Assembly: GCF_021530995.1 (NCBI RefSeq)
Contig: NZ_JADYTF010000011.1
Location: forward strand, 1 to 48,861
Direction of reading: 5' to 3'
Length of the DNA: 48,861 bases
DNA from: Bacteroides caecigallinarum
Lineage (GTDB): Bacteria > Bacteroidota > Bacteroidia > Bacteroidales > Bacteroidaceae
Shown: positions 34,711-47,926 of the stretch, piece after piece
Numbering within the stretch: position 1 is the stretch's first letter
Layout: each line of letters starts with the position of its first letter
Position numbers and translations under genes: made by a program
The notes under the pieces: model-generated
Databases searched by the model: none
What the model was told of the DNA's origin: nothing
Seen by the model: the letters and a program-made list of their open reading frames with translations, nothing else

Positions 34711-35337
34711 TCATCTCCTCATCCGCTCCCGTTCCTCGTCCAACAGCATCCGCTTGTTCACCTTCTCCGCAGCCCGGTCGAGGAAATAGGTGCGGCTCTC
34801 GCTCTTGCGCATCTTGATGTCGTTGTATATGTTGTAACAGCCTTTCGCCTGTACGCCGAACACCTTGTAGCAGTAGGAAGCTATCTCTTTCAGCGATGCT
34901 TCACCGCCGTTTATACAGCCCATCTCGCTGATGCCATAGATAAGTTCCACGAGGTCGGACGCCTTGCCCGTCCACCGCATGGGCGGGGCATCGGCAGGCG
35001 TATCGTCTTTCTTTTCATCTTTGGAGGGGATGGAGGATAGTGGCGGCACTTGGTTATGTGGCATGGAAATGTGTTTCAGCATCTTGCGCACGAAGGCGAG
35101 GGCTTTGCGCACGTACACGCTGTGGTGGGTGCCCGTATCTTGCAGGGCTTTGTGGTATTGCAGTTCCGTTTCCGCATAGCTCAACGCGGGCAGCGGATGG
35201 CAGGGGCTTGCAGCTCCCGTACAGAGCGAAATGACCGTTGCCACGAACTCGTTGTATGCCGCACTCAGCCCGTTGCGGCTTTCGGGGTTGTCTATCAGGC
35301 GGAAGAACTCCGTTTCTGTCAATATGAGATGTTCCAT
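34711..35337 (-). CDS. rteC: regulator RteC
   Basis: A 208-residue protein whose C-terminal domain (KASDLVELIYGISEMGCINGG, then SLKEIASYCYKVFGV and IYNDIKMRKSESRTYFLDR) is the RteC family. In CTnDOT, RteC binds inverted repeats near the excision promoter and turns on xis genes, after RteB has activated rteC. Regulation here may use the palindromes and GG/GC promoter-like motif found upstream (35397-35583). Length close to CTnDOT RteC. Confidence 0.9.
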   Translation of the reverse strand: MEHLILTETEFFRLIDNPESRNGLSAAYNEFVATVISLCTGAASPCHPLPALSYAETELQYHKALQDTGTHHSVYVRKALAFVRKMLKHISMPHNQVPPLSSIPSKDEKKDDTPADAPPMRWTGKASDLVELIYGISEMGCINGGEASLKEIASYCYKVFGVQAKGCYNIYNDIKMRKSESRTYFLDRAAEKVNKRMLLDEERERMRR

Positions 35338-35396
35338 TTGCTTTCAGTTTTATGTTGTTACACTTGGGTTGAAGTGTGCGCACATAAAACTATCGG

Positions 35397-35411
35397 GCAA
35401 ACGGCAGTCCA
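35397..35411 (-). promoter_or_regulatory. possible sigma-54-type -24/-12 element before rteC
   Basis: The minus strand reads TGGACTGCCGTTTGC, that is TGG-N8-TTGC with GG and GC separated by 10 bases as in sigma-54 promoters. It lies 60-74 bases upstream of the rteC start. A competing reading is a weak sigma-ABfr promoter with TAGTTTTA (35385-35392) as -7 box, but no TTTG sits at the proper distance. Confidence 0.4.
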
Positions 35412-35510
35412 ACGGATGGGATTTTTTGCGGCTTGTTTTGCAAGTCGCTGATAAACAGCAGACATATTTGATAAAAATAAATTGGAATACCCGAATTCAG
35501 TCTTTCGGAT

Positions 35511-35583
35511 GTGTTCAGAAATTGAACACGTGTTCATAATCTGAACACTCTTTTGAGCAGGGAGGTGTTCACTTTCTGAACAG
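35511..35583 (-). promoter_or_regulatory. three GTGTTCA-N5-TGAACAC palindromes upstream of rteC
   Basis: Perfect copies at 35511-35529 and 35530-35548 stand back to back; a third with one changed end base is at 35565-35583, inside the end of the DHFR-like gene. They lie about 100-170 bases upstream of the GG/GC element, where enhancer sites of AAA+ activators such as RteB would be. Confidence 0.8.
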
Positions 35584-35998
35584 TCGCACCCTCATTCTTG
35601 CGGTACACGGCTTTCAGCGAACCGTCCTTGTATGTCTTTGTCTCGTCCCGCATCCATTCGCTTTCAGGCAAATCTCCAAGGAACAGGCGGCAGCCGTTCC
35701 CGGCAATGACGGGTATCGTGCAGAGGATGATTTCATCCAGCAGGTGCATCCTTGCCATGCCGTTAATGATGCTTGCGGTAGCGGTGTTGGCTTCTATGAA
35801 ACAGGTGGTGTCGGACTTGTCAAGCACCAACGTGGTAAGGGAAGTGTATTCGGAGAGCGGACGGGCGGTTTCTTTCATTCCGGCAATGCCGAATCTGTCC
35901 GGCGTGTCGGTTTTGGCAAGCCATTGCTGCGCTTTCCCTGAACTGTCCGCAAGGCATCCGTCCATCGTGAGGACGGCGAATAATATGACTTTTCCCAT
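35534..35998 (-). CDS. dihydrofolate reductase/RibD-C family protein
   Basis: A 154-residue protein of the dihydrofolate reductase-like family (RibD C-terminal type): VILFAVLTMDGCLAD at the N-terminus and LLDEIILCTIPVIAGNGCRLF later, the nucleotide-site segment. Such proteins occur beside rteC in many Bacteroides ICEs; their substrate is unknown, and trimethoprim resistance should not be assumed. The ATG at 35998 begins the conserved domain; an in-frame start at 36145 would translate a foldable leader. The last codons overlap an RteB-type palindrome. Confidence 0.85.
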   Translation of the reverse strand: MGKVILFAVLTMDGCLADSSGKAQQWLAKTDTPDRFGIAGMKETARPLSEYTSLTTLVLDKSDTTCFIEANTATASIINGMARMHLLDEIILCTIPVIAGNGCRLFLGDLPESEWMRDETKTYKDGSLKAVYRKNEGATVQKVNTSLLKRVFRL

Positions 35999-36391
35999 CG
36001 GTCTCTTTTTTAGTGGTTGCGACCGAAAGCCGTCATACGAAAATAGCGTGCAAATCACACTACTTTCTGGTGACGGCTCTGGACTGCCTCTACGGAATGT
36101 ACGTGACTGCACGCTATGCCGAGGCATAGCATAAGCATCACGCAATCGCCTTCCATAGTTCCAATTGTCCAGATTTTCACCAGATGCGCCTTGCGGTCTT
36201 ATTCTATACTATATTTTCATCGGACGGATTTTTTTTACTTTCCGCACCCGACTTTTCTCAAATGTTGCTACAAAGGTAATGCAAGTTGAGGGCAGAACAA
36301 AACAAATCCATTGTTTTTTATGCCGAAACGCCGCTTACCTTATCGAAAGGTAGCCTTTTTCCTGTAATTCCTTTCATTTTTTCACAGTTTT
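35999..36391 (-). promoter_or_regulatory. promoter and long folded leader of the DHFR-like gene
   Basis: A good promoter (TTTG 36298-36301, 19-base spacer, TACCTTTG 36271-36278, minus strand) is followed by a leader of about 265 bases. It holds a three-codon frame Met-Lys-Ile (36209-36220), a 33-codon frame starting near 36165, and stems P1 (36112-36119/36122-36129), P2 (36044-36052/36107-36115) and P3 (36028-36035/36070-36077). P1 and P2 exclude each other; P2 and P3 interlock. ACCACTAAA (36009-36017) is 11 bases before the start codon. The part beyond 36302 is an AT-rich gap after rteB. Confidence 0.65.
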
Positions 36392-37678
36392 CTATTCTAT
36401 CCCGTATGCTTTCAGCTTGTTGTACAGCGTGGTGCGCCCGATGCCGAGCAATGCTGCCGCCAACTTGCGGTTGCCCTTTGCCTGTTCCAGCGCATGGATG
36501 ATTTGTTTCTTCTCCATGTCGTTCAAAGCCAGCGAAGCGTCATCCGCCATTGGCATTTCATCGAACTCCAACGTGTCTGCCATGACCGTATCGCCTTCGG
36601 TATGCAGCACCGCCATGCGCACGACCCGTTTCAGTTCCCTCACGTTGCCGCCCCATGCATAGGCGAGCAGTTGTTTTCTTGCTTCCGCGTCAAAGCCTTT
36701 CACCTGCCGGTCAAGTTCCTCATTGGAGAGTTTCAGGAAGAAATCAGCCAAAGGCATGATGTCCTCACGGCACTCGCGCAGCGGCGGTATGTTCAATGTG
36801 TATTCCTTTATCCGATGGAACAAATCCTGACGGAAATGCTTTTCGGCGATGGCTGCCTGCAAGTCCTCGTTGGTGGCGGCGATGATGCGCACGTCAGCCC
36901 GCTTGTCCTTGCTGCCTCCCGTGGCTCTGTACCGTTTGGCTTCCAACGCCCGGAGCAGCATCTGTTGCACTTCCGGTGGAAGGTTACCTATCTCGTCGAG
37001 GAACAATGTGCCTCCTGCGGCTTCTTCCCAGAATCCCTGTTTCTTGCTTTCGGCTCCCGTAAACGCCCCTTTCTCATGCCCGAACAGGGAGGATGCGGCA
37101 AGTTCCTTTGAAAGCAGCCCGCAGTCCACAGCGACAAAGGGCCCCGCCGACCGTTTGCTCATCGTATGTATTTTCTCGGCGATGTGTTCCTTTCCCGTTC
37201 CGCTTTCGCCTAATATCAATACGCTCATGTTGGTTGGGGCGACCAGCCTTATCTTGCGGTCTATTTCCCGGAAAGCCGTGCTCTGCCGCTCATGGATGGG
37301 CGTATCGTGCCGCTCCATCCTTTTCCGCAAGGTTTTCAGGAGCGGGAAGAGGTTGGCTTCAATCAGCTTTTTCGGGATGTAGTCTTCCGCGCCCTGCTTC
37401 ATTGACCGGACGGCGGTGGGCACCTCGTCATAGTCGGTCATGACGATGTAGGGATTGTTCCTGCCCTGTTTCCGCAGTTCTTCCAGCAGACTGATACCGT
37501 CACCGTCATTCAAGCGCAGGTCAGCCAGAATGATGTCATCTTCCCTCATCTTGGCAAACAGCTTCCGTGCGCCGTTGCAGGTGGAGGTGCTGACGCTTGG
37601 GTATCCCTTGCTTTCCAGCAGGCGGCATACAAAGTCGGAATAGATGATGTTGTCCTCCACTACGATTATTCTGCCCAT
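36392..37678 (-). CDS. rteB: RteB, sigma-54-type response regulator
   Basis: A 428-residue enhancer-binding-type regulator: receiver with phosphoacceptor Asp53, AAA+ domain with Walker A GESGTGKE (157-164), the sigma-54-contacting GAFTGA loop (204-209) and Walker B near 224-229, then a C-terminal Fis-type helix-turn-helix (KLAAALLGIGRTTLYNKLKAYG). It overlaps rteA by 13 bases. In CTnDOT RteB, phosphorylated by RteA, activates rteC. All key motifs are intact. Confidence 0.93.
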   Translation of the reverse strand: MGRIIVVEDNIIYSDFVCRLLESKGYPSVSTSTCNGARKLFAKMREDDIILADLRLNDGDGISLLEELRKQGRNNPYIVMTDYDEVPTAVRSMKQGAEDYIPKKLIEANLFPLLKTLRKRMERHDTPIHERQSTAFREIDRKIRLVAPTNMSVLILGESGTGKEHIAEKIHTMSKRSAGPFVAVDCGLLSKELAASSLFGHEKGAFTGAESKKQGFWEEAAGGTLFLDEIGNLPPEVQQMLLRALEAKRYRATGGSKDKRADVRIIAATNEDLQAAIAEKHFRQDLFHRIKEYTLNIPPLRECREDIMPLADFFLKLSNEELDRQVKGFDAEARKQLLAYAWGGNVRELKRVVRMAVLHTEGDTVMADTLEFDEMPMADDASLALNDMEKKQIIHALEQAKGNRKLAAALLGIGRTTLYNKLKAYGIE

Positions 37679-39975
37679 CGTTCCGCCTCCTTCCTTGCCG
37701 AATCAACAATCAGTCTGCCCTGTGCCAGTACCGCGTTTACGGCAGATTGCACCTTTTCATCCGGTATGTCCTCCTTGTGGATTACCTCATACAATGCCGC
37801 CAACGGTTGCTCCGCCTTTATCAGCATCCACGAGCTTCTCAGGTGATGTACCCAGTTATCCAATGCTTCCATGTCCCCCGCTTCCGCCGCCTTGCGCACT
37901 TCGTCCATGTCGGATTGTGTAGTGGCCGCCAGCTTTTCCAACGTGCGCCGCTTGTCGCCGAAGGCAAGCAGGGATGACAGGTCTATGCTGTTTGCTTTGT
38001 TCCGTTTGATGCAGCTTTCCGTCACCGCCAGCAGTTCGTCTATGGAATAGGGCTTGTACAGCACGGCGGCAAAGCCTTTGCCCGTCAGTTCTTCTTTCTC
38101 CACATAGCCTGCGGCGGTGGCTGCCACGACGGGAATGGTCTGCGAATTGCCTATTTCCGATGTGCGCAGCAGTTCCAGCACCTCGTAGCCGTTCACCTCC
38201 GGCATTTTCAGGTCGGTTATCAACAGGTCATAATCTTTTGTGCGCATCAGGTCTGTCAGTTCTCCTGCTGTCTGGCAAGTGTCGCACTCCACACCGTTTT
38301 GTCTGTACATCTCTTTCATCATGTCCAGCAGCATCCCGTTGTTGTCTATCGCCAGTACGGAGCAGCCGGACAGCGTGGAATGTCCGGCGTTTGTCTTTTC
38401 GCCGGCCGCCATTTCTTCCGCCTTTGCCAACGGCAGGCTGACGGTGAAGCGGCTTCCCTTGCCCGGCTCGCTTTCTACCGTGATATTTCCTTTCAACAGC
38501 TTTACCGTGTCGGCTACGATGGCAAGCCCCAGCCCGAAGCCGTCCTCCGTCACGGCGTTGCCCAACCGCTCAAACGGGATGAATATCCGCGCCTGTTGTT
38601 CTCCGGTCATGCCCGTGCCGGTGTCTTCCACCGTCAAGGTAAATATGCCGTTCTTGTAGCCGGTGCTTAATGTGACTGTACCGCTTCGGGTGAACTTGAT
38701 GGCGTTGGAGAGCAGGTTGCCGCCAATGCTTATAATCCGGTTCCTGTCGCCGCTTACAATCTCGTCCGTTTCACTTTCTGTCTTGAAGTTGAGTCCTTTA
38801 TTCTTCGCCAATGTTGCAAACTCCGTTTCCAATGTTTCGGCGATGGAGCGCAGTTTGAAAGGCTTGACGCTTGGCGTTTCCTTGCCGCTGTCCAGCCGGA
38901 AATACACCAGGAGGTTGTTTATCATTCCCGCCATGCGCCCGGCGGCATCCCCGATGGTCTGTGCGTGGCGCATACGGTTGTCTGCCTCCGTGTCGTTCAG
39001 CAGCAGTTCGGCGTTGCCGCCGATGACGGTCAGGGGAGTGCGCAGTTCGTGGGTGACGTTCTGGATAAGGTTGCGCCGAAGCCTGATTAGTTTTTCATTC
39101 GCATCGTTGCTCTTCTGCAATTCGCCGATGAGCTTTTCTCGCTTTTTCTTTTCGTTCGCGCTGTGTTTCAGTTCTCTATGGATGGTGAGATAAGAAAGGA
39201 ACAGCAGGATGATGGCAGCAGAGATGGTCGCCGTGAACAGCCTGACGGACAACGCCTGTGCCTCGGCTATCTTCCGCTCCTTCTGCACGAAAGCCTCCTG
39301 CGCCTGCCCGTCAAGTTCGGTTATCAGCCGGTTCAGCTCGGCGTTCAGCCTCCTGCCCAGCGTGCGCAGGCTGTCGGTGTATGCCTCCATTTCCGCCGTC
39401 CGTTCCTGCTGCATGGCTATCAGGCTGTCGCTGAACTGGTGCAGTTCCTTGGCGGACGGCAGTATCTGCACGGTCTTCTTGCCGCCAAAAGCCCCAGCGA
39501 TGCCTTTCTTTTTCTGCGTCACGGTGCGTACACGGGTGGCACGTTTCGCCACTTCGGGCAGATGGTTCACCAGCAGGCTGTCTGCCTTGTCCTGACGGGC
39601 GAAAGTTTCCATAAGGTGCAGCAGGTGGGCTTCTTTTTCCACCAAGAGGGCGCAGAGCGTGTCTATCTGCGCCGGATGCACGAAATCCTTGCAGCGGGGC
39701 TTCATGGCTTGCAGCAGGCTGTCCGTCCGCAGCCGCCGGGTGCGGTAGTGCCGGTAGTCCGCCTCTTCCCAGCCGATGACGCCTTCGCCCAATGTGGCGA
39801 GGGTGATGATGTTGCGTTGGGCGACGGTGATGTCACGCCTTATCTCCTGTATTTCGCCTGTTTCGGCTTCTATCTCACGCATCCGTCCACGTTCATGCAC
39901 CAAAATGGCGGCCATGCTACAGATGACCGCCACCAAGACCAGATACCCGGCAAGAATTTTTGTCTGTAATCTCAT
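37666..39975 (-). CDS. rteA: RteA, hybrid sensor histidine kinase
   Basis: A 769-residue membrane sensor: helix at residues 7-27, periplasmic helical domain, second helix at about 247-266, kinase H-box with His309 (THELRTPL), N-box around 420-428, DTGTGM and GFGLGLAI ATP lid, then a receiver with Asp588 (ITDLKMPE) and an HPt domain with His710 (VHHLRSS). Phosphate thus passes through His-Asp-His to Asp53 of RteB. In CTnDOT this pair sits behind tetQ; here an HU-type gene precedes it. Confidence 0.93.
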   Translation of the reverse strand: MRLQTKILAGYLVLVAVICSMAAILVHERGRMREIEAETGEIQEIRRDITVAQRNIITLATLGEGVIGWEEADYRHYRTRRLRTDSLLQAMKPRCKDFVHPAQIDTLCALLVEKEAHLLHLMETFARQDKADSLLVNHLPEVAKRATRVRTVTQKKKGIAGAFGGKKTVQILPSAKELHQFSDSLIAMQQERTAEMEAYTDSLRTLGRRLNAELNRLITELDGQAQEAFVQKERKIAEAQALSVRLFTATISAAIILLFLSYLTIHRELKHSANEKKKREKLIGELQKSNDANEKLIRLRRNLIQNVTHELRTPLTVIGGNAELLLNDTEADNRMRHAQTIGDAAGRMAGMINNLLVYFRLDSGKETPSVKPFKLRSIAETLETEFATLAKNKGLNFKTESETDEIVSGDRNRIISIGGNLLSNAIKFTRSGTVTLSTGYKNGIFTLTVEDTGTGMTGEQQARIFIPFERLGNAVTEDGFGLGLAIVADTVKLLKGNITVESEPGKGSRFTVSLPLAKAEEMAAGEKTNAGHSTLSGCSVLAIDNNGMLLDMMKEMYRQNGVECDTCQTAGELTDLMRTKDYDLLITDLKMPEVNGYEVLELLRTSEIGNSQTIPVVAATAAGYVEKEELTGKGFAAVLYKPYSIDELLAVTESCIKRNKANSIDLSSLLAFGDKRRTLEKLAATTQSDMDEVRKAAEAGDMEALDNWVHHLRSSWMLIKAEQPLAALYEVIHKEDIPDEKVQSAVNAVLAQGRLIVDSARKEAERWAE

Positions 39976-40011: not shown

Positions 40012-40476
40012 TTACCCCAACGGATTCTCCGTTACATCCTCGTCATCCTCATCCTGTGCCGGGTCGCTGTCCTCCGTGTCGGGCGAAAGCTCGATCCATT
40101 CCAATTGGTCGCTGTCCACGAGGGCGCGGGTGTAGGTGCCGTTGGCAAGGCGGGTGCGTTCGGGGATGAACTCCACTCGGACGGCTTTCACCTGCTTCTC
40201 GAAGTCGAAGTCTTCGAGGGTGTCCACGCCCACGGTGTCGAGCACGTAGCGGAAGTAGCCGAGGCCTTTGATGTGGACGCTCTTGCCTTGCGCCATGCGG
40301 GTGTGCATTACGCCCGCGATGTCACCCAAGACGGCCTGGACATCGGAGTTGCTCACTGTGGAAATCTTCGCCAAATCCTTGGCGATGGTTTCCGTTTCTA
40401 CAGGTTTGCCCTGGACTACGGCACGGGGGTAATATACACCCTGCTGTTTGTTGTACGATTTTTTGTAGAATGGCAT
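40012..40476 (-). CDS. HU/DNABII-family DNA-binding protein
   Basis: A 154-residue protein of the longer Bacteroidetes HU-like group: IAKDLAKISTVSNSDVQAVLGDIAGVMHTRMAQGKSVHIKGLGYF followed by a strand-rich arm and an acidic, probably disordered tail (DTEDSDPAQDEDDEDV). It binds DNA and bends or scaffolds it. It is 36 bases upstream of rteA on the same strand, so an HU-rteA-rteB operon is likely. The region before its start has the 22-bp-periodic palindromes but no recognisable Bacteroidetes promoter. Confidence 0.85.
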   Translation of the reverse strand: MPFYKKSYNKQQGVYYPRAVVQGKPVETETIAKDLAKISTVSNSDVQAVLGDIAGVMHTRMAQGKSVHIKGLGYFRYVLDTVGVDTLEDFDFEKQVKAVRVEFIPERTRLANGTYTRALVDSDQLEWIELSPDTEDSDPAQDEDDEDVTENPLG

Positions 40477-40584: not shown

Positions 40585-42147
40585 TCAGTTCGTTGACTTT
40601 ATCACAGGCAGATTATTTGCACCCATTTCATATTGATAATTATACCCTGCTTCTTGCAAAGCATTGTTCATGTCTGTAATCGCAGAAGACCAATCGTTAT
40701 TCGTTATCTGCGTGCCATAGCCATTATCATTTCCTGCACTGAAATAGCAAGCTGTGAGCTGAGAATAATCTGTTCCTACTATCCCTCCAACGGTCATGTT
40801 ACTGTTCCCTGTAACAGTCCCGGTGTTGCAACAACCTATCAGGCTGCCGTCCCAAACCACTCCGACAATTCCACCCACCCTTTCTAATCCAGTAATATCC
40901 GCAGAATTGCTACAAGCCACTATGCGCGGCGCGCCATACAAGCAAACGCCAGCCAAACCTCCGGCATCAAATTCACTTGTTATTGTTCCACCTATTATGT
41001 GGCAATTTTCTATCGTTCCGTAATTTACGCCAGCAATTCCACCGCATACTTGTCCTGAAACTGACATATTGCAATCTTTGAGTTTCACGTTCTTTACTAC
41101 GCCACTGGTCCCAATCATTCCGAAGAGTCCGGCTATATAATCTGATAAATTAAATTTAAGTTCAGATATAGTATGCCCGTCCCCATCAAATGTTCCCAAG
41201 AATTGATTACCATTACCGTGTTCGTCAACCGTTGTTATCGGTGTCCATGATTCAGTTAATGTAATATCCGCGCCGAGTTTGAAGTGTTCAGTTATATTTT
41301 GGTTGTCTTGGCTTTTCGTCGAAAGAGAGGTAAGCTGGGTGGCGTTTAACAATACATACGGATATGCTTCGCTTCCATCCCCCAATGAATTATAATTAGA
41401 AGCCTGTTCAGATGTAGGTATGGCATCTGCCGCAAAACTTTGTCCGCTGGCTGATGCGCGGCTTAATGCCTTGTTGTAAAGCTCCGTTGGCGTGGATGCG
41501 GAATATTGCGCCGTCACCTGCAAGTTGCTGCTTGTCGTCCACGTGCCGTATAGATAGGCATTGCCCTTGCTATCCGTGGTCAGGGTGTAATTGTTGCTTC
41601 CTGAAGTTGTACTGCCTGCCGGGGTAAAGTCTGTAAGCGACACACTTAGCTGCGTGCTTGAGGTAGAGGCGATACGCAGGCGGCTATATTCGCGTGATGT
41701 GAAAGTGATGTTGGGCGAACTGTTGCTTGTAGCCATGATGCACTCGTCAAGCCCGGCTTGCTCTCCGTCGCGAAGCGCCAATGTGCCATCGTTTGTTGTG
41801 CTCCATTGATAAGCGGGGGCATACCATGCGGTCACGGTGTAGCTGGCGTAGGTTTGCTTCAAGGTGGGCGTAGTTATCCATGTGCTACCGTCATAACTCA
41901 TAACGGCATATTGCGGTTTATCACTACTACAAGTTACGCTGACCAGCAGTTGGTCGCCAGCCTCCCATGCCGACTTGCCGCCTGCATCAGTTGTGCCAAT
42001 GGCACGTGTTGCCGCATCTTCACCGAAAGCGGGGAAGTCACCTACAGTGAGGGTCAGTATGCCTGTTTGTATCGCATTGTTTTCTATGTCGTTGGTACAA
42101 GCCGCAAGCAGGATAGCCATGCTTATGATATAAAGTAGATTTTTCAT
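40585..42147 (-). CDS. fimbrillin-like lipoprotein with GLUG-type repeats
   Basis: A 520-residue lipoprotein (signal ending AILLAAC). The N-terminal half resembles fimbrillin family proteins (ILTLTVGDFPAFGEDAATRA). After about residue 280 come repeats of the GLUG kind: CGGIAGVNYGTIENC, AGGLAGVCLYG, GGIVGVVWDGSLIGC, GGIVGTDYSQLTAC. Such repeats form beta-helices in adhesins. It is the last gene of the fimbrial run and probably a pilus-tip or surface adhesin; that role is inferred. Confidence 0.85.
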   Translation of the reverse strand: MKNLLYIISMAILLAACTNDIENNAIQTGILTLTVGDFPAFGEDAATRAIGTTDAGGKSAWEAGDQLLVSVTCSSDKPQYAVMSYDGSTWITTPTLKQTYASYTVTAWYAPAYQWSTTNDGTLALRDGEQAGLDECIMATSNSSPNITFTSREYSRLRIASTSSTQLSVSLTDFTPAGSTTSGSNNYTLTTDSKGNAYLYGTWTTSSNLQVTAQYSASTPTELYNKALSRASASGQSFAADAIPTSEQASNYNSLGDGSEAYPYVLLNATQLTSLSTKSQDNQNITEHFKLGADITLTESWTPITTVDEHGNGNQFLGTFDGDGHTISELKFNLSDYIAGLFGMIGTSGVVKNVKLKDCNMSVSGQVCGGIAGVNYGTIENCHIIGGTITSEFDAGGLAGVCLYGAPRIVACSNSADITGLERVGGIVGVVWDGSLIGCCNTGTVTGNSNMTVGGIVGTDYSQLTACYFSAGNDNGYGTQITNNDWSSAITDMNNALQEAGYNYQYEMGANNLPVIKSTN

Positions 42148-42163
42148 CGTTATTCCTCCTTCC

Positions 42164-42985
42164 TCAGTTTAAGTCTGTTTCGTCATCCCATCCCGGCAGT
42201 ACGTTTGTTGATGCAGGGGTCAGCGTCAGTTCCTTGTCTGTGACGGTAAGGTCAAATGAGTATGCGTTGCCACTGGTCAACATTTGGTTGCTGGTAGCCG
42301 TCATGTCCATCCCGTTCACCTTCAGTTTGAGTGTAAAACCGTTATCGCTGGGTGCTATGATAGCGGTGTAGGTATTACTGCTTTCTTCGTAAGCGATAAC
42401 ATCCGTAGCATTGCCTGTTCCAGTCACTGTGTCATCGCTTCTGGTCACATTGGGATAGGACGTAATTTTGAAATCGGAAATGGCTGGCATCGTGTTTCCA
42501 TAGTCACTCCAACTGGTAATGGTGACGGCGACTTTGCACAGCCTATGCACCAATGCCAGCGAAAGGTTGGTGCCGTTAAGTTGTTGGCTTGAAGCGGTAG
42601 TCATATAGTCCGCCTCAGCAATGCCCGCACTTTGGTTAGTTGGGATAGTGAACGATGTCAGCGTTGCCGTTGCTGGATAACAGGCTTCCACGGTGGCTGG
42701 CAATGTGACATTGAATGTGGTCCATGATGCTCCATTGATGTATGTCAAAGTCCTGGTCGTCGGAGAGGTACTGCCATAACCCATCACATATAGATTTATC
42801 GCATCACCATTCTGCCATGTCCACGTGTCACCATCAGCGGTGGCACGTGTGCTGATGCTCACTTGTACCTCTTGCGGTTCTCCGCCAGGCACGGTAGCAT
42901 CTTCTTCGTTGCTGCACGCCGCAAAAAGGGGCATGAAAACCACTAATGCGAAGCCTTTTATCAAGCTGTAATGTCTTGTTGTCAT
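42164..42985 (-). CDS. fimbrillin family lipoprotein
   Basis: A 273-residue lipoprotein with signal ending VFMPLFAAC, then the fimbrillin-like domain (VQVSISTRATADGDTWTWQNGDAINLYVMG, then LALVHRLCKVAVTI). It resembles FimA/Mfa1-type proteins, which are exported as lipoproteins, cut by a gingipain-like protease and joined by strand exchange. The fourth of five such genes in the cluster. Separated from the next gene by a GC-rich hairpin and the PIN module. Confidence 0.85.
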   Translation of the reverse strand: MTTRHYSLIKGFALVVFMPLFAACSNEEDATVPGGEPQEVQVSISTRATADGDTWTWQNGDAINLYVMGYGSTSPTTRTLTYINGASWTTFNVTLPATVEACYPATATLTSFTIPTNQSAGIAEADYMTTASSQQLNGTNLSLALVHRLCKVAVTITSWSDYGNTMPAISDFKITSYPNVTRSDDTVTGTGNATDVIAYEESSNTYTAIIAPSDNGFTLKLKVNGMDMTATSNQMLTSGNAYSFDLTVTDKELTLTPASTNVLPGWDDETDLN

Positions 42986-43057
42986 TCTTCTTTATGTTTT
43001 ATATTGTTAAAATTCTTCATTCTTCGTGCTTCATTTTCAACGGAATTGGAAAACAAG

Positions 43058-43095
43058 CGTCCCGCCCTCCTCCTTGCGGGGAGAGGGGCGGGACG
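43058..43095 (-). terminator. GC-rich hairpin after the PIN gene
   Basis: A perfect 10-bp stem (CGTCCCGCCC 43058-43067, GGGCGGGACG 43086-43095) with an inner CCTCC/GGAG pairing. It follows the end of the PIN gene (43125) on the minus strand. The T-run after it is weak. Similar CCCTCC-rich palindromes are common between Bacteroidales genes. Confidence 0.65.
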
Positions 43096-43124
43096 AAACA
43101 ATGGGGATATGTCTGTTGAATCGG

Positions 43125-43543
43125 TTAAAGTCCGGCAAGTTCTTCCATAAACCGATTCAGGCGAATCACGTTCACTTTAGGAAAGGGTATGGTTTCCAAT
43201 ATCCGGAAGTGGGTATCCTCGCTGACAATGTAATCGGCACCTGCCACTATGGCACAATCCACAAACTTGTTGTCATCAGGGTCTTGCTCAATAAGACGGA
43301 AGCGGAAATGCGGAGTAAAGAACCGCGTGAACGGGCTGCGTATGATGGCATTGACGATATTGTGGGCGACGGCTGCATTTGCCACGCGCTCTATGATTTC
43401 TCCTCATATTCATCCACAATGTCATCGGTCACACACAGCTCGTATTTTCCTTCACGAAACGCCTGCCATGCCGCACGGTAGGGACTATGTACCGACAGCA
43501 TTTGCACCAAACAATTAGTGTCCAATACCACCAGCCTTTTCAT
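43125..43543 (-). pseudogene. PIN-domain toxin broken by a frameshift
   Basis: The N-terminal half starts at 43543 (KRLVVLDTNCLVQMLS) and reads 50 residues to a stop just after EYEEKS. The C-terminal half continues in another frame (IIERVANAAVAHNIVNAI to FMEELAGL, ending at 43125), with the PIN acidic residues in DPDDNKFVDCAI. A one-base deletion in a run of A's (GAGAAATC) explains it. The N-terminal part overlaps the antitoxin by 4 bases. Probably an inactive toxin; a sequencing error is possible. Confidence 0.85.
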
Positions 43544-43773
43544 TGTTTGTAAGGGGTACGGTAATGGGCATTGCCCAGTTCTTTCAAGGTCTGTTCATTC
43601 CATTGTCCGGACTGCCACAGCTTTTCCATTTCCTCGTCGGCACGGCGGGCATAAAACTCGGATACGGCATGTTTCAGTGCATCCAGTTCCTCATCGCTTC
43701 GGACATTCGCCATGATGTCGAGCATCTCCAATTGCGCTTTGTTGAATATAGTTCGTTCCATAATCAGCTTCAT
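43540..43773 (-). CDS. antitoxin partner of the PIN gene
   Basis: A 77-residue acidic helical protein (FNKAQLEMLDIMANVRSDEELDALKHAVSEF, then ARRADEEMEKLWQSGQW). It precedes and overlaps by 4 bases the PIN-domain gene, the usual antitoxin-toxin order. No clear DNA-binding motif is visible. Met5 (43761) may be the true start. Its partner is frameshifted, so the module may no longer work. Confidence 0.8.
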   Translation of the reverse strand: MKLIMERTIFNKAQLEMLDIMANVRSDEELDALKHAVSEFYARRADEEMEKLWQSGQWNEQTLKELGNAHYRTPYKQ

Positions 43774-43881
43774 TTCAATTTGTCACTTGGCAAAATTACG
43801 AAATTTATCCGAAACCTGTATGTACTTCCCATTATTTCGTTTGTTTTCCAACCTGTCAAAGAACGCTTTATATTTTCTTCT

Positions 43882-43897
43882 CCCCTCCACGGAGGGG
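43882..43897. repeat. CCCCTCC hairpin, common Bacteroidales-type palindrome
   Basis: CCCCTCC (43882-43888), AC, GGAGGGG (43891-43897), followed by TTGGGGGAGGCTTTTTATT. It lies at the end of a fimbrillin gene and could act as a terminator or as a short dispersed repeat. Confidence 0.6.
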
Positions 43898-43911
43898 TTG
43901 GGGGAGGCTTT

Positions 43912-44880
43912 TTATTCTGTTGTCAAGTCATAGTTGCCACCGTTGCCCCAATCGCTTACAGTGATATTATTAACCCACACTCCGCTCTCTTTTGTGATAG
44001 TTACCTCATAGGTATAGGAATGGCCTGCTTTCCAAACAATGTCCTTTGATGCATAACACGAATATTCCCTCCTATTATTAATGACAAGATAGTATTCATT
44101 CTCCTTCACTGTTTGCGGAATGACAAGTGCGGCGAAACTGGCGAGGGAAGTTTCGTTTCCGTCGGATGCAAGGGGCTGTGGACCGAGGCTGTAGGCCGTG
44201 ATAGTCCCCCTTGTGCTTCCCGGTGTCCAGTTGAGATAATTCTCGCTTATGTTGTCCGTACTCACTGTGCCATTCATAACAATATTGTTCATTTCTCCTA
44301 CCGTCACACTGACGTCATCACTTTCGTACACAGGACCTACATTGCGGACATGCACCACCACTTTTGCCACTTGATGGTAGAATTTAAGGGCAATTTCCTG
44401 CCCTCCGCTTACCCTTCCCTGCGCAAATAGCAAGTCGCTATTCGCATAATTGTCGTCAGTTCCTTGATTTCTTTGCACAGGCCATGAGTCTGGATGCACT
44501 TTGCTGTCGTCGCCATAATGCCAGGCACGGACAAGTTTGGTCTCGGTGTCGCTTAGCCAAGAAGATTGCTCGCCGCTCGTAAAGGTCAGTTTGCCATCGG
44601 TACCGGCTGTGTAAATTCCTCTCTTGGCTTGCGTCCAGTCGGGAGTTGTCGTATTGTCGTAATTGTCTATCACCTCTACAATGACGGTTTCCGTGCCTTC
44701 CCAACTGTTATCGGGAGTTGCCCGCGTGCCGGTTGTCGCATCCGCCATAACAGCAGTCAGCACCAACGGCTCGCCGTTTTCCGCAGGGCTTGTTTCGGTA
44801 AGGTCGTCATGCGAACAGGCGGATAGAATGCCTGCCAGCAAAAGGAGAATCATCCGTTTCAAGTCTGATAGTCGGTTCAT
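43912..44880 (-). CDS. fimbrillin family lipoprotein
   Basis: A 322-residue lipoprotein: signal with lipobox LLLAGILSAC, then GEPLVLTAVMADATTGTRATPDNSW, and a C-terminal VSDWGNGGNYDLTTE typical of fimbrillin-family proteins. The ATG at 44880 is chosen because the upstream Met at 44916 would give an extra polar stretch before the signal. Middle member of the fimbrial run; the C-terminal strand ending may act in strand exchange. Confidence 0.85.
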   Translation of the reverse strand: MNRLSDLKRMILLLLAGILSACSHDDLTETSPAENGEPLVLTAVMADATTGTRATPDNSWEGTETVIVEVIDNYDNTTTPDWTQAKRGIYTAGTDGKLTFTSGEQSSWLSDTETKLVRAWHYGDDSKVHPDSWPVQRNQGTDDNYANSDLLFAQGRVSGGQEIALKFYHQVAKVVVHVRNVGPVYESDDVSVTVGEMNNIVMNGTVSTDNISENYLNWTPGSTRGTITAYSLGPQPLASDGNETSLASFAALVIPQTVKENEYYLVINNRREYSCYASKDIVWKAGHSYTYEVTITKESGVWVNNITVSDWGNGGNYDLTTE

Positions 44881-45013
44881 ATTACATATATATTTTATGT
44901 TCTGTCTTTGTGCCACCGGCGGCTGCGAAACCGCCAGCTACACCTGTTTGTTCAGGCATATCTCCGTGCTTGCGCAAGATGCACGGGATGGCTGTTGTTT
45001 CTTTTCACTGGAA

Positions 45014-45964
45014 TCAGTTGATTATAATATTATCACCTCCACCGTTCGTCCAATCTTGTATTGTGCCGGAACTGATTACCAAGCCTGTCTTCTGAATGGA
45101 AATGTCGTAGCTGTAAGATGTGGATGCAGCGAATGCAGGGGTCAGTGTACCCGTGTAGGTCTGCCCGTCGATGGTAGCACTAAAGGTCAGGCTGGCTCCT
45201 GTTTGCGGATAGAGTATCAGGCTGCATGTTCCGATGTTATTAGTATAAGTAATGTAGTCGGTTATTTCCCAATTATCTGTCGCATTTCCTGTCGCTTCCG
45301 CTGTTCCGTCCTCCGTGTTGAACGTACCGCTGTGCTTGATACCACTCAAGGAGTACGCGCCGCCTTCTACATCATTTGCCGAGAAGCCTGCATCGGTATC
45401 TGTCGTGATGTTCAGCACAAGGCGTGTCATCATGTGCTTGAAGCGGGCATCAGTGGTTCCATTATCTGTGTTGTTGAATTTTACAGTGGGGCTGTTCTTG
45501 CTTGCCGTTGCACCCGTTGCGAACATGAAGTCGAAGTTCTTTTGGTCGCTTTGGTTATCGGTTCTTACATCCGTTATTGTCACTTCTCCGTTGTTTTCTT
45601 GACTGTCTTCATCAAAAGGATAGTAAGCGCGGAAATATACCGTTTCGTCCGCATCTTGGAAGAAGATGCCTGATGACGAGCCGCCAGAGTGCGTGAAGTT
45701 GCCGTCGCCAGCGGTGGTAACATAGTGCATGTTGGTGTATTGGGTGAGCGTGGGTGTTCCGTCTGTTGGTGTATAGACCGACACGCCGATGGCATCGTTG
45801 GCTTCCCATGATTGCCCGAACGCACGTGTCAGCACGTCGTTGATGCCTGCGGTGATTTGCGCCGCTACTGGGCCATCATTTGCGCCCATGTTCTCATCGT
45901 CACTGCTGCAAGCCGCGAAAGATAATGCGGTTGCCGCGAGGAATAAATACTTAGTTCCTTTCAT
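45014..45964 (-). CDS. fimbrillin family lipoprotein (paralog of next upstream gene)
   Basis: A 316-residue lipoprotein (signal ending ATALSFAAC). The first part (GINDVLTRAFGQSWEANDAIGVSV, then YTNMHYVTTAGDGNFT) closely matches the gene at 46062-47018 (RAFDQTWEAGDAIGISG, then YTNVQYVTTGGNGNFT), so the two are tandem duplicates. It ends in TIQDWTNGGGDNIIIN. Likely a structural pilin or accessory pilin. Confidence 0.87.
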   Translation of the reverse strand: MKGTKYLFLAATALSFAACSSDDENMGANDGPVAAQITAGINDVLTRAFGQSWEANDAIGVSVYTPTDGTPTLTQYTNMHYVTTAGDGNFTHSGGSSSGIFFQDADETVYFRAYYPFDEDSQENNGEVTITDVRTDNQSDQKNFDFMFATGATASKNSPTVKFNNTDNGTTDARFKHMMTRLVLNITTDTDAGFSANDVEGGAYSLSGIKHSGTFNTEDGTAEATGNATDNWEITDYITYTNNIGTCSLILYPQTGASLTFSATIDGQTYTGTLTPAFAASTSYSYDISIQKTGLVISSGTIQDWTNGGGDNIIIN

Positions 45965-46061
45965 CTTTATCGTTGTATATTTGGTTATTGTTCAAAATCT
46001 TTGTTTGTTTTATGTTTTGCCTTCGTCCAGCCAAGGCTATGTCTCCGTCCAGTCAAGGCAA

Positions 46062-47018
46062 TCAGTCGGCATTCACGTTACCACCGTTTGCCTCATCCCA
46101 TCCTTGGATGGTGCAGCCGTCCACGGTGATGTCGGTCTTGTGCAGGGTCACGCTGAGGTTATACTGCCGTCCGGCTACCCATTCGTTCTTCGCGTCCGTA
46201 TCGCCGGCATCGACATTGGCGGCAGTGAAGTCAAGCGTCGCGCTGAACGACTGCATACCCGTAAGGGTTGCCGTGATGGGCAACGGGCTACTGAACTCCT
46301 GCGGGAAGAGGATGAGCGTGTAGGAAACGGATTCTGCTGTGGCATTGGGTACGAAAGGCGCATTGTAGCCTGTTTCAGAGGTGTTTCCGGCAAATGTCCA
46401 GCCCGTCGCCAAGTCATCGGCGGTCGAGGTTGTCCCGTCCGTCACGTTGAACGTGCCGCTGTACTTGAAGCCGCCAAGCGACAGCACGGCATCCTGCACT
46501 TCCTGATAGCTCACGTCATTGCCTTTCTGGATGGTCAGCACGAGCTTCGCCATCTTGTGTGCGAAAATGAACTGCACGTTGGGGCTTGCCTTGCTACCCG
46601 TCTGCCGCGACCAAAGGAAGTCGAAGTCGCTTTGCGAAGCCTGCGCCCGTGTGTCGGCGGTAATGGTAGTTGCATCTGCTGCAAGGTTGGCCCACGGGTA
46701 ATAGGCGGTAAAGGTCACGGAGTTGTCATCCTGATAGTAGATTTCATTGCCCTGAGTGCCTACGGTGAAGTTGCCGTTCCCACCTGTGGTTACGTACTGT
46801 ACGTTAGTGTAGGTCGTACTGCCCGATGTGCCGCTGATGCCGATGGCATCGCCTGCCTCCCATGTCTGGTCGAATGCGCGGGTATTCACCTGTCCGTCGA
46901 TGGCAGCGGTGAACGTGGCTTGGGACGACCCGGTGTCAATCACGTTGTTCTCGTCGTTGTTGCACGCCGTCAGCACTGCGGCTGCCAGCGTTGCCATGAA
47001 AATGATTTTTGCTTTCAT
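46062..47018 (-). CDS. fimbrillin family lipoprotein (tandem paralog)
   Basis: A 318-residue lipoprotein: signal MATLAAAVLTAC, then the fimbrillin domain with RAFDQTWEAGDAIGIS, IFAHKMAKLVLTIQKG and the ending TIQGWDEANGGNVNAD. The ATG at 47018 starts the lipoprotein signal; a longer frame to 47111 runs into the preceding gene. First fimbrillin after the FimB/Mfa2-type gene. Duplicate of the neighbour at 45014. Confidence 0.87.
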   Translation of the reverse strand: MKAKIIFMATLAAAVLTACNNDENNVIDTGSSQATFTAAIDGQVNTRAFDQTWEAGDAIGISGTSGSTTYTNVQYVTTGGNGNFTVGTQGNEIYYQDDNSVTFTAYYPWANLAADATTITADTRAQASQSDFDFLWSRQTGSKASPNVQFIFAHKMAKLVLTIQKGNDVSYQEVQDAVLSLGGFKYSGTFNVTDGTTSTADDLATGWTFAGNTSETGYNAPFVPNATAESVSYTLILFPQEFSSPLPITATLTGMQSFSATLDFTAANVDAGDTDAKNEWVAGRQYNLSVTLHKTDITVDGCTIQGWDEANGGNVNAD

Positions 47019-47071
47019 CTTATTAAATTGTGTAATTTTGGGGTTATATTTCTTTATTCCTAATCTCTCCA

Positions 47072-47926
47072 TCAATGCGCGTCCGCATTGCCTCCGTCCG
47101 CCTGCTGCCAACCGTCTATGCTGCCGGCAAAGCCTCCCTCCACGGGAGTGCGCAAGTTGCCTGTCAAGGCAAAGGGTTCGGTACTGCCGTTGAACCCGGC
47201 AAGGACTTCCGTCAGGTCGCTCTCAATGGACTGCGTGTCGCCGTTGCTGAAAGTCAGCAGGATGCTTAGCGTTTGCGCATCACCCATGATGCCCAGCAGA
47301 CGCAGGTCTGCCGACACCTTGTCACCGCTGCGCGTGAACGTAGGTCGTGTGCTGACCGCCTCGCCGTAGAGCGTTTCGTTGCGCAAGTCGTATGCTTCCG
47401 CCACGCCGCTGAGCGTACCCGTTATGGCAGCGATGCGCTCCGGGTCGCCCTCGGTCACGGTCAGCTCGATGTGCAGGTCGCGCACCCGTTGCGTCACGTC
47501 AAGGTTCATGCGTAAGGTGTCATCCGCCATGACTGTTATCCGCTCCGTGCCCGAATAGAGATAGTCCGGCAGGGGATTGATGAAGTCGGTGAGGGCGCGT
47601 ACCGTGCCGTCTGTCCGCTCCACACGGGCGATGCCGTCCGTCACGGTGAACCCCTGCGGCGTGTTGTAGGCCAGCACGGTGTACTCGCCGGGAGGCAGCG
47701 GGTCGGAAACGGTGTAGCGGCCTTCCTTGCCGTCGGCGGTCGTGCCGTCAATCTCTACCGTATAGTCTTCCCCGCTTGCGCCCTGCGGCAGGTCGATTGA
47801 CACTGCCACTATGCCCTTGTCCGGATGCGGCGTGTCGTGCAGCTCGTCCTTCACGCATCCGCCCAGAGAGAACAGCAGGGCCGTCGCCAGAATCGTTGTC
47901 GTATATTTCCTTTTTCTTGTTTTCAT
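47072..47926 (-). CDS. FimB/Mfa2-family fimbrial anchor protein
   Basis: A 284-residue lipoprotein: signal LATALLFSLGGC, then GIVAVSIDLPQGASGEDYTVEIDG, PPGEYTVLAYNTPQGF and MNLDVTQRVRDLHIELTVTEG, a pattern of the FimB/Mfa2 family that anchors and limits type V fimbriae. It ends GWQQADGGNADAH. It precedes four or five fimbrillins on the same strand, consistent with an anchor-first fimbrial operon. Confidence 0.82.
   Translation of the reverse strand: MKTRKRKYTTTILATALLFSLGGCVKDELHDTPHPDKGIVAVSIDLPQGASGEDYTVEIDGTTADGKEGRYTVSDPLPPGEYTVLAYNTPQGFTVTDGIARVERTDGTVRALTDFINPLPDYLYSGTERITVMADDTLRMNLDVTQRVRDLHIELTVTEGDPERIAAITGTLSGVAEAYDLRNETLYGEAVSTRPTFTRSGDKVSADLRLLGIMGDAQTLSILLTFSNGDTQSIESDLTEVLAGFNGSTEPFALTGNLRTPVEGGFAGSIDGWQQADGGNADAH

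Follow-up and report, generated by a model that had tools for sequence, protein, structure and literature searches.

We propose that the tandem dyads upstream of rteC are upstream activating sequences for the response regulator RteB, that TGGACTGCCGTTTGC is a -24/-12 promoter of rteC read by the host's sigma-54 polymerase, and that phosphorylated RteB activates rteC through them; judging from comparison of sequences, we put the probability of this reading at roughly 0.8. The window, that is, the whole stretch of 48,861 nucleotides of Bacteroides caecigallinarum DNA that was analyzed, includes the part of a CTnDOT-type conjugative transposon with the tra, mob and regulatory genes. Transcription on its minus strand runs from rteA, which encodes a hybrid histidine kinase (37666..39975), through rteB (36392..37678) and an open reading frame resembling dihydrofolate reductase and RibD_C (35534..36145, with an unsure 5' start and a Pfam match below the curated cut-off), to the regulated gene rteC (34711..35337, with its ATG at 35337; Pfam RteC, PF09357, 1.7e-23). 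A domain search showed RteB to be intact, with a receiver (Response_reg, 2.6e-17), a sigma-54 AAA+ domain (Sigma54_activat) and a Fis-type helix-turn-helix (HTH_8, 8.1e-15) whose recognition helix reads GRTTLYN, and the nearest solved relatives of the protein are members of the NtrC family. The GAFTGA loop, which the first-pass annotation of this DNA had described as intact, is indeed present in the window's RteB. Among 37 RteB-like matches, duplicates included, 26 have GAFTGA, 7 have GSFTGA and 4 have neither. In the type represented by locus L092, RteB reads GAFTSA instead of GAFTGA, and the -12 element reads TTGG.

The activation of rteC by RteB in CTnDOT, which that annotation had named, is stated in PMC1976400, citing Moon et al. 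2005. The regulatory genes of the window share with the rteA-rteB-rteC cascade of CTnDOT and CTnERL, as described there, the activation of rteC by RteB and the control of excision by RteC. Unlike in CTnDOT and CTnERL, tetQ does not lie directly ahead of rteA here, and a HU-HIG gene and a lipoprotein-like gene are found instead. The gene order, including a gene for a dihydrofolate reductase family protein, is the same as in CTn214 of Bacteroides fragilis (PMC10865816), with tetQ in front in CTn214. The HU-HIG type gene, which encodes a DNA-binding protein and lies upstream of rteA, occupies 40012-40476 of the window. By eye, a series of genes for secreted, fimbrillin-like lipoproteins, possibly cargo, extends over 40585-47926.

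Upstream of rteC, two exact copies of GTGTTCA-N5-TGAACAC abut each other at 35511..35529 (UAS1) and 35530..35548 (UAS2), and a third dyad with one mismatch, GTGTTCA-N5-TGAACAG, lies at 35565..35583 (UAS3), in the 3'-terminal part of the dihydrofolate-reductase-like frame. All three are predicted RteB sites, the third being the distal one. The first-pass annotation had pointed to two back-to-back sites with a near copy ahead of a TGG-N8-TTGC element, and both the sites and their distances were confirmed, in that the dyads lie 100-172 bp from TGG-N8-TTGC, which is itself 60 bp ahead of the rteC ATG. We counted as a like-dyad pair any two dyads 10-100 bp apart with at least 6/7 arm pairs and at most 2/14 arm differences. 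The window contains four such pairs, three of which make up the rteC cluster, and 60 first-order Markov copies of the window contain two in total. Given these three pairs against two in 60 copies, the cluster is not attributable to chance. The whole 3.7-Mb host genome contains one other dyad with at most one mismatch; this near copy is solitary, sits on another contig (C391) and was dropped as an extra site because it lies within a coding frame. No further cluster of the RteB type was found in the window or in its own genome, and the CTn214 stretches that were searched contained the rteC site and no extra site.

To see how far this arrangement extends among relatives, RteC was sought in whole genomes sampled at the ranks of order, family, genus and class (sets of 295, 399, 61, 395, 123, 38 and 7 genomes, overlaps included); GTDB species contigs supplied 17 RteC loci, plasmid records were used for RteB, and a single-protein scan of viral contigs gave no relative. 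We excluded 32 of the 126 loci with an RteC match, in which the match did not start near residue 1 or the upstream DNA was too short, and merged the remainder by identity of the last 300 nt, which left 54 distinct rteC upstream regions; full-length RteC matches in three genomes (G399, contig C13; G560; G581) stand outside this set. Dyads, defined for this count by six-base arms with at least 5/6 arm pairs and a five-base centre, were found between -255 and -185 from the rteC ATG in 41/54 loci, compared with 0/54 in a control interval 285 bp farther upstream and 1.2% in shuffled DNA. They occupy three registers relative to the ATG, at about -191, about -210 and about -233 to -246; counterparts of UAS1 stand at the first in many relatives, and those of UAS2 and UAS3 at the second and third in several. 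Measured from the predicted transcription start, the centres of 81 sites lie near -135, -154 and -177 to -189, of which about -135 is the commonest. The 13 loci without a dyad of 5/6 arm pairs comprise 9 of the 13 loci whose helix reads GRTTLYS, and L046, L089, L092 and L119. GRTTLYS marks the CTnDOT type, in which the sites are TGTTCT-like and mostly degenerate (for example, TGTTCTGATTACAAACA), in contrast to the GRTTLYN helix and TGTTCA sites of the window.

These dyads might instead function at the RNA level, as a terminator or as hairpins ending the dihydrofolate-reductase-like gene, and the dyad segment does fold better than its shuffled versions (z -4.6) and has one terminator-like match. 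However, tandem dyads fold well regardless of function, the terminator-like match is on the plus strand and hence off the gene strand, and no Rfam match to an RNA element was obtained at E up to 0.5. Furthermore, in five loci (L055, L090, L048, L049 and L094) rteB ends 225-270 bp from rteC, too close for the reductase-like gene to fit between them, and yet the dyads are kept, directly after rteB; the L092 type is the exception. Given also that the half-sites track the RteB helix, as described below, we regard a role in RNA as extremely improbable.

As a competing view, the first-pass annotation had suggested that the palindromes are bound by RteC itself, which would amount to autoregulation. 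The position of the dyads before rteC agrees with this idea, as does the fact that RteC controls genes for excision and transfer in this family of elements (Moon 2007; PMC1976400). However, in an analysis of 46 loci, the distance between half-sites followed the distance between the RteB helix-turn-helix regions once RteC was allowed for (partial Mantel 0.51, as a rank correlation; 0/999 permutations as high), and its correlation with RteC distance once RteB was allowed for was -0.29. This analysis omits L057, L058, L121 and L128, for which an RteB end was not found, and L046, L089, L092 and L119, which have no scored dyad; 7/13 GRTTLYS loci entered it by their -232 site instead of their -190 site. 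Individual pairs of loci also argue against RteC. The last 95 residues of RteC are 83% identical between L003, which is of the window type, and L113, and yet the sites are TGTTCA with the helix GRTTLYN in the former and TGTTCC with GRTTLYR in the latter. Conversely, L048 and L094, in which the same 95 residues are only 37% identical, have RteB C-termini 95% identical and do not differ in their sites (TGTAAA). The helix GRTTLYN and the TGTTCA site are found in both L003 and L007, although their RteB C-termini are 48% identical, and between L007 and L065 the helix-turn-helix differs at 2/28 residues (D/N and N/S) and the innermost base is changed, from TGTTCA to TGTTCT. Little weight was given to L067 as a clean switch of helix and site, because its TGTATG site coincides in register with a weak site of the CTnDOT type (TGTGCG...CATACA).

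We also analyzed the promoter of xis2c, the presumed target of RteC. An Xis2c-like match was present in 15/15 rteC-carrying genomes tried (E up to 1e-6, some of the matches being weak), and 0/19 regions have a dyad of the RteB type in the 300 nt ahead of xis2c. The upstream DNA contained TACGTGAGTCACGTA or a variant of it in 13/19 regions (CTnDOT-like), CTCACGTAAGTTACGGGTAAG / CTCACGTAAGTTACGGGTAAGTACCG in 4/19 and neither in 2/19, and a scan across 3.2-3.4 kb showed a perfect CGTCCG dyad farther away in 8/19 loci. Judging by gene neighbourhood, the xis2c block is common to the window-type element and the R-type element of genome G515; the window-type element was taken for this comparison from G417, where RteC is identical at printed precision. 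Since these two elements have the same xis2c block and different rteC dyads, RteC is separable from the dyads. Taken together, because the half-sites track the RteB helix and not RteC, and because the xis2c promoter is without dyads, the dyads are likely RteB sites; the correlation of -0.29 and the result at xis2c led us to reject RteC as their binder, a view that we consider very unlikely. Separately, the blocks TACGTGAGTCACGTA and CTCACGTAAGTTACGGGTAAG upstream of xis2c in L142 (G000:C247), L141 and L105 are possible RteC sites.

Next, we tabulated the recognition helix of RteB against the bases of the half-sites at the canonical registers, many of which come from related loci, for 10 helix types; inclusion required at least 5/6 arm pairs, and positions 2-3 of the half-site are GT/AC by construction. 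GRTTLYN occurs with TGTTCA (53/58 half-sites), SRTTLYN with CGTTCA or TGTTCA (16/18), GRTTLYS with TGTTCT (9/14), GRTTLYR with an innermost C (16/16), SPPTLYK, TPPTLYK and SRPTLYK with an innermost AA (34/34), SRPTLYE with TGTAAG (3/4), SRSTLYE with an innermost G (8/8) and SRATLYS with TGTATG (2/2). In other words, the innermost base is A with N or K, G with E and C with R, and the helix and site of Escherichia coli NtrC agree with the pairing of R and C. For the residue after TLY and the innermost base, 5/6 same-residue pairs agree (permutation p 0.0105), and for the third helix residue and the next base, 9/12 pairs agree (permutation p 0.0105), both p values being uncorrected and the best of 16. 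A tree of the part of RteB that precedes the helix-turn-helix requires 11 changes for 12 helix types, which is the minimum possible. Because each helix type need arise once only, few re-origins test the code independently. This tree, which is weakly rooted, places the clade with GRTTLYS inside the GRTTLYN rows and puts the two E types in separate parts.

The predicted sigma-54 promoter of rteC, TGGACTGCCGTTTGC, lies at 35397..35411 on the minus strand and was assigned from TGG-N8-TTGC and its conservation. Based on sigma-54 spacing, the predicted transcription start, 12 bases downstream of the C in TTGC, is at 35385 (minus strand, within 2 bases), and the spacing from TTGC to ATGTGCGCAC is constant within one base in the aligned relatives. 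By itself, TGG-N8-TTGC is not beyond chance, with 15 occurrences in the window against 9.24 expected and as many in 5/100 shuffles, and a longer sigma-54 consensus was not enriched in the window either (77 matches against 84 in shuffles). Since motif significance in a single genome failed for the -24/-12 element, we relied on conservation. An ungapped alignment of 45 of the first 47 sequences was anchored on TGTGCGCA, the first eight bases of the palindrome TGTGCGCACA described below; 51/54 loci have this octamer within 90 nt ahead of rteC, about 11 bases beyond the TTGC block in aligned relatives. From these 51 anchored loci (L046, L089 and L129 are without the anchor), we drew 18 representatives less than 75% identical over 60 nt and scored them against the sigma-54 consensus TGGCACG-N4-TTGC. 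At the promoter spot the mean score was 7.61/11, which is 7.6 sd above the mean of the 560 positions and strands scored (mean 2.57, sd 0.66). The second-best of them had 5.28, and 0/20,000 permuted consensuses reached the score of the promoter spot.

In the alignment of 45 sequences, a G is conserved in 42/45, and 12 bases on stands the TTG block, with its G in 43/45 and its T's in 45/45 and 44/45; the following C is present in 32/45. Strict TGG-N8-TTGC was found in 13 of the 54 loci, GG-N8-TTGC in 18 and TTGC in 43, so that neither the second G of the -24 element nor the final C is invariant. The CTnDOT type has lost that second G and reads TGACACG or TGCCGCG. TGGCACG is the majority sequence only over the 45 unweighted sequences, where one column has C in 20 and A in 19, and the majority -24 element over the 18 representatives is TGGAACG. 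The first-pass annotation's GG-N10-GC element therefore holds as the spot that best fits the consensus across the 18 representatives, although a single match carries no weight and the strict form is restricted to 13/54 loci. The own genome encodes one RpoN, with an ARRTVAKYR box, and rpoN was present in 46/46 rteC-carrying genomes chosen. Exact TGGCAC-N5-TTGCW was found twice in the own genome, which is not above the reversed control and does not help to define the sigma-54 consensus of the host. By eye, a perfect TGGCACACATCTTGCA stands shortly upstream of a gene for an HlyD-like efflux adaptor in the own genome (L163, contig C348), and may be a host sigma-54 promoter.

We also considered the possibility that RteB binds the dyads but acts by a route other than sigma-54, with the Bacteroides sigma-ABfr (-33/-7) recognizing the rteC promoter. 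With TTTG-N19..21-TANNTTTG as its consensus, the best ungapped fit scored 6.28/10, where the mean was 2.90 (sd 0.83); this is a weak fit at about 4 sd, and it includes columns invariant through the anchoring of the alignment. TT and A are conserved immediately ahead of the predicted start, as this possibility would have it. However, it leaves the near-invariant TTTG block in its spacer and the G-to-G spacing of 12 unexplained, the fit to sigma-54 is the 7.6 sd given above, and RteB keeps GAFTGA; in addition, there is no match of the E. coli sigma-70 type in 35300-35700. We therefore consider a sigma-ABfr promoter unlikely. The combination of an RteB enhancer and a sigma-54 promoter, which the first-pass annotation had put forward, is thus supported, as far as sequences can tell, by the dyads of the 41 loci, their covariation with the helix, the conserved promoter spot and the rpoN of the carriers.

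Two other conserved elements were found in this region. The palindrome TGTGCGCACA lies at the predicted mRNA start (35375..35384), and its octamer TGTGCGCA occurs once in the window. Around the palindrome, 35346-35391 contains a 20-nt inverted repeat that could form an mRNA hairpin (z -3.6 for a 61-nt stretch); by eye, this hairpin is seen in some relatives only, and its outer stem would start upstream of the predicted start. The second element is a mid-spacer dyad, CTG-N5-CAG, at 35448..35458 on the minus strand, which follows an AT-rich stretch and is a candidate bend site for a protein of the IHF/HU family. YTG-N5-CAR was present at -126 to -112 in 16/18 representatives and in 45/54 loci, compared with 1.3% of shuffled regions. 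Its mean score against the E. coli IHF consensus WATCAA-N4-TTR was 6.8/9 over 16/18 representatives, a value partly built in by the CA-anchored alignment. A host factor of the HU/IHF family has been reported in CTnDOT integration. IHF-assisted sigma-54 promoters, such as that of nifH, likewise have a conserved element that adjoins an AT-rich stretch halfway from enhancer to promoter, but the element here resembles the E. coli IHF consensus only moderately, and its role as a bend site is our guess.

On the reading with RteB and sigma-54, RteA would phosphorylate RteB, and RteB dimers would occupy the dyads, whose centres lie about 135, 154 and 189 bp ahead of the predicted start. The DNA between enhancer and promoter would then bend, perhaps through an IHF/HU-family protein at YTG-N5-CAR, so that the GAFTGA loop of RteB could contact sigma-54 and ATP hydrolysis could open the promoter; the RteC made in this way would turn on excision. 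The element probably relies on the host's sigma-54 as the switch that controls its departure from the chromosome. Enhancers of the NtrC type, such as the upstream sites of glnA, similarly consist of dyads with a 5-bp centre more than 100 bp upstream of a -24/-12 promoter, and their binder, as predicted here, is a response regulator with GAFTGA and a Fis-type helix-turn-helix. The rteC sites differ in that they are on a Bacteroidales mobile element, are known here from sequence and have half-sites that diversify with the recognition helix.

The covariation of helix and enhancer, the conserved TGTGCGCACA at the predicted start and the conserved mid-spacer dyad are new here. Among the literature matches listed, we found no description of a sigma-54 promoter or of RteB sites at rteC; subscription papers were mostly beyond reach, and such a description may be in print there. 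Sigma-54 regulons have been predicted in Bacteroidota (PMC12316311), in the main text of which, as far as it was available, no word beginning with 'conjugat' occurs. It is the step from RteB to rteC that commits elements of the CTnDOT type to excision, and these elements, which carry tetracycline resistance, are widespread among the Bacteroides of the gut. If our reading is true, then this step can be tested through single-base changes.

A broader and more tentative idea, to which we give somewhat less than even odds, is that the RteB family carries a modular DNA code, open to being read, in which two helix residues set the two inner bases of the half-site. Conjugative transposons of the Bacteroidales would then each evolve an enhancer of their own but have the host's sigma-54 and one promoter layout in common, sigma-54 would gate excision in the whole family, and a single residue could insulate co-resident elements from one another or wire them together. 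If this speculation is true, then the code predicts which co-resident elements can activate one another. A count of co-resident elements, based on the 63 loci that had been assigned to a class (L058 and L069 are classless, and G1148 and G507 were left out), gave 3/20 pairs with the same helix against a shuffled mean of 5.9 (P = 0.136), which does not establish insulation. Separately, five rteC loci were observed in G515, and the genome of L027 (G000:C392) contains a second rteC element, whose RteB helix reads GRTTLYR and whose dyads are different.
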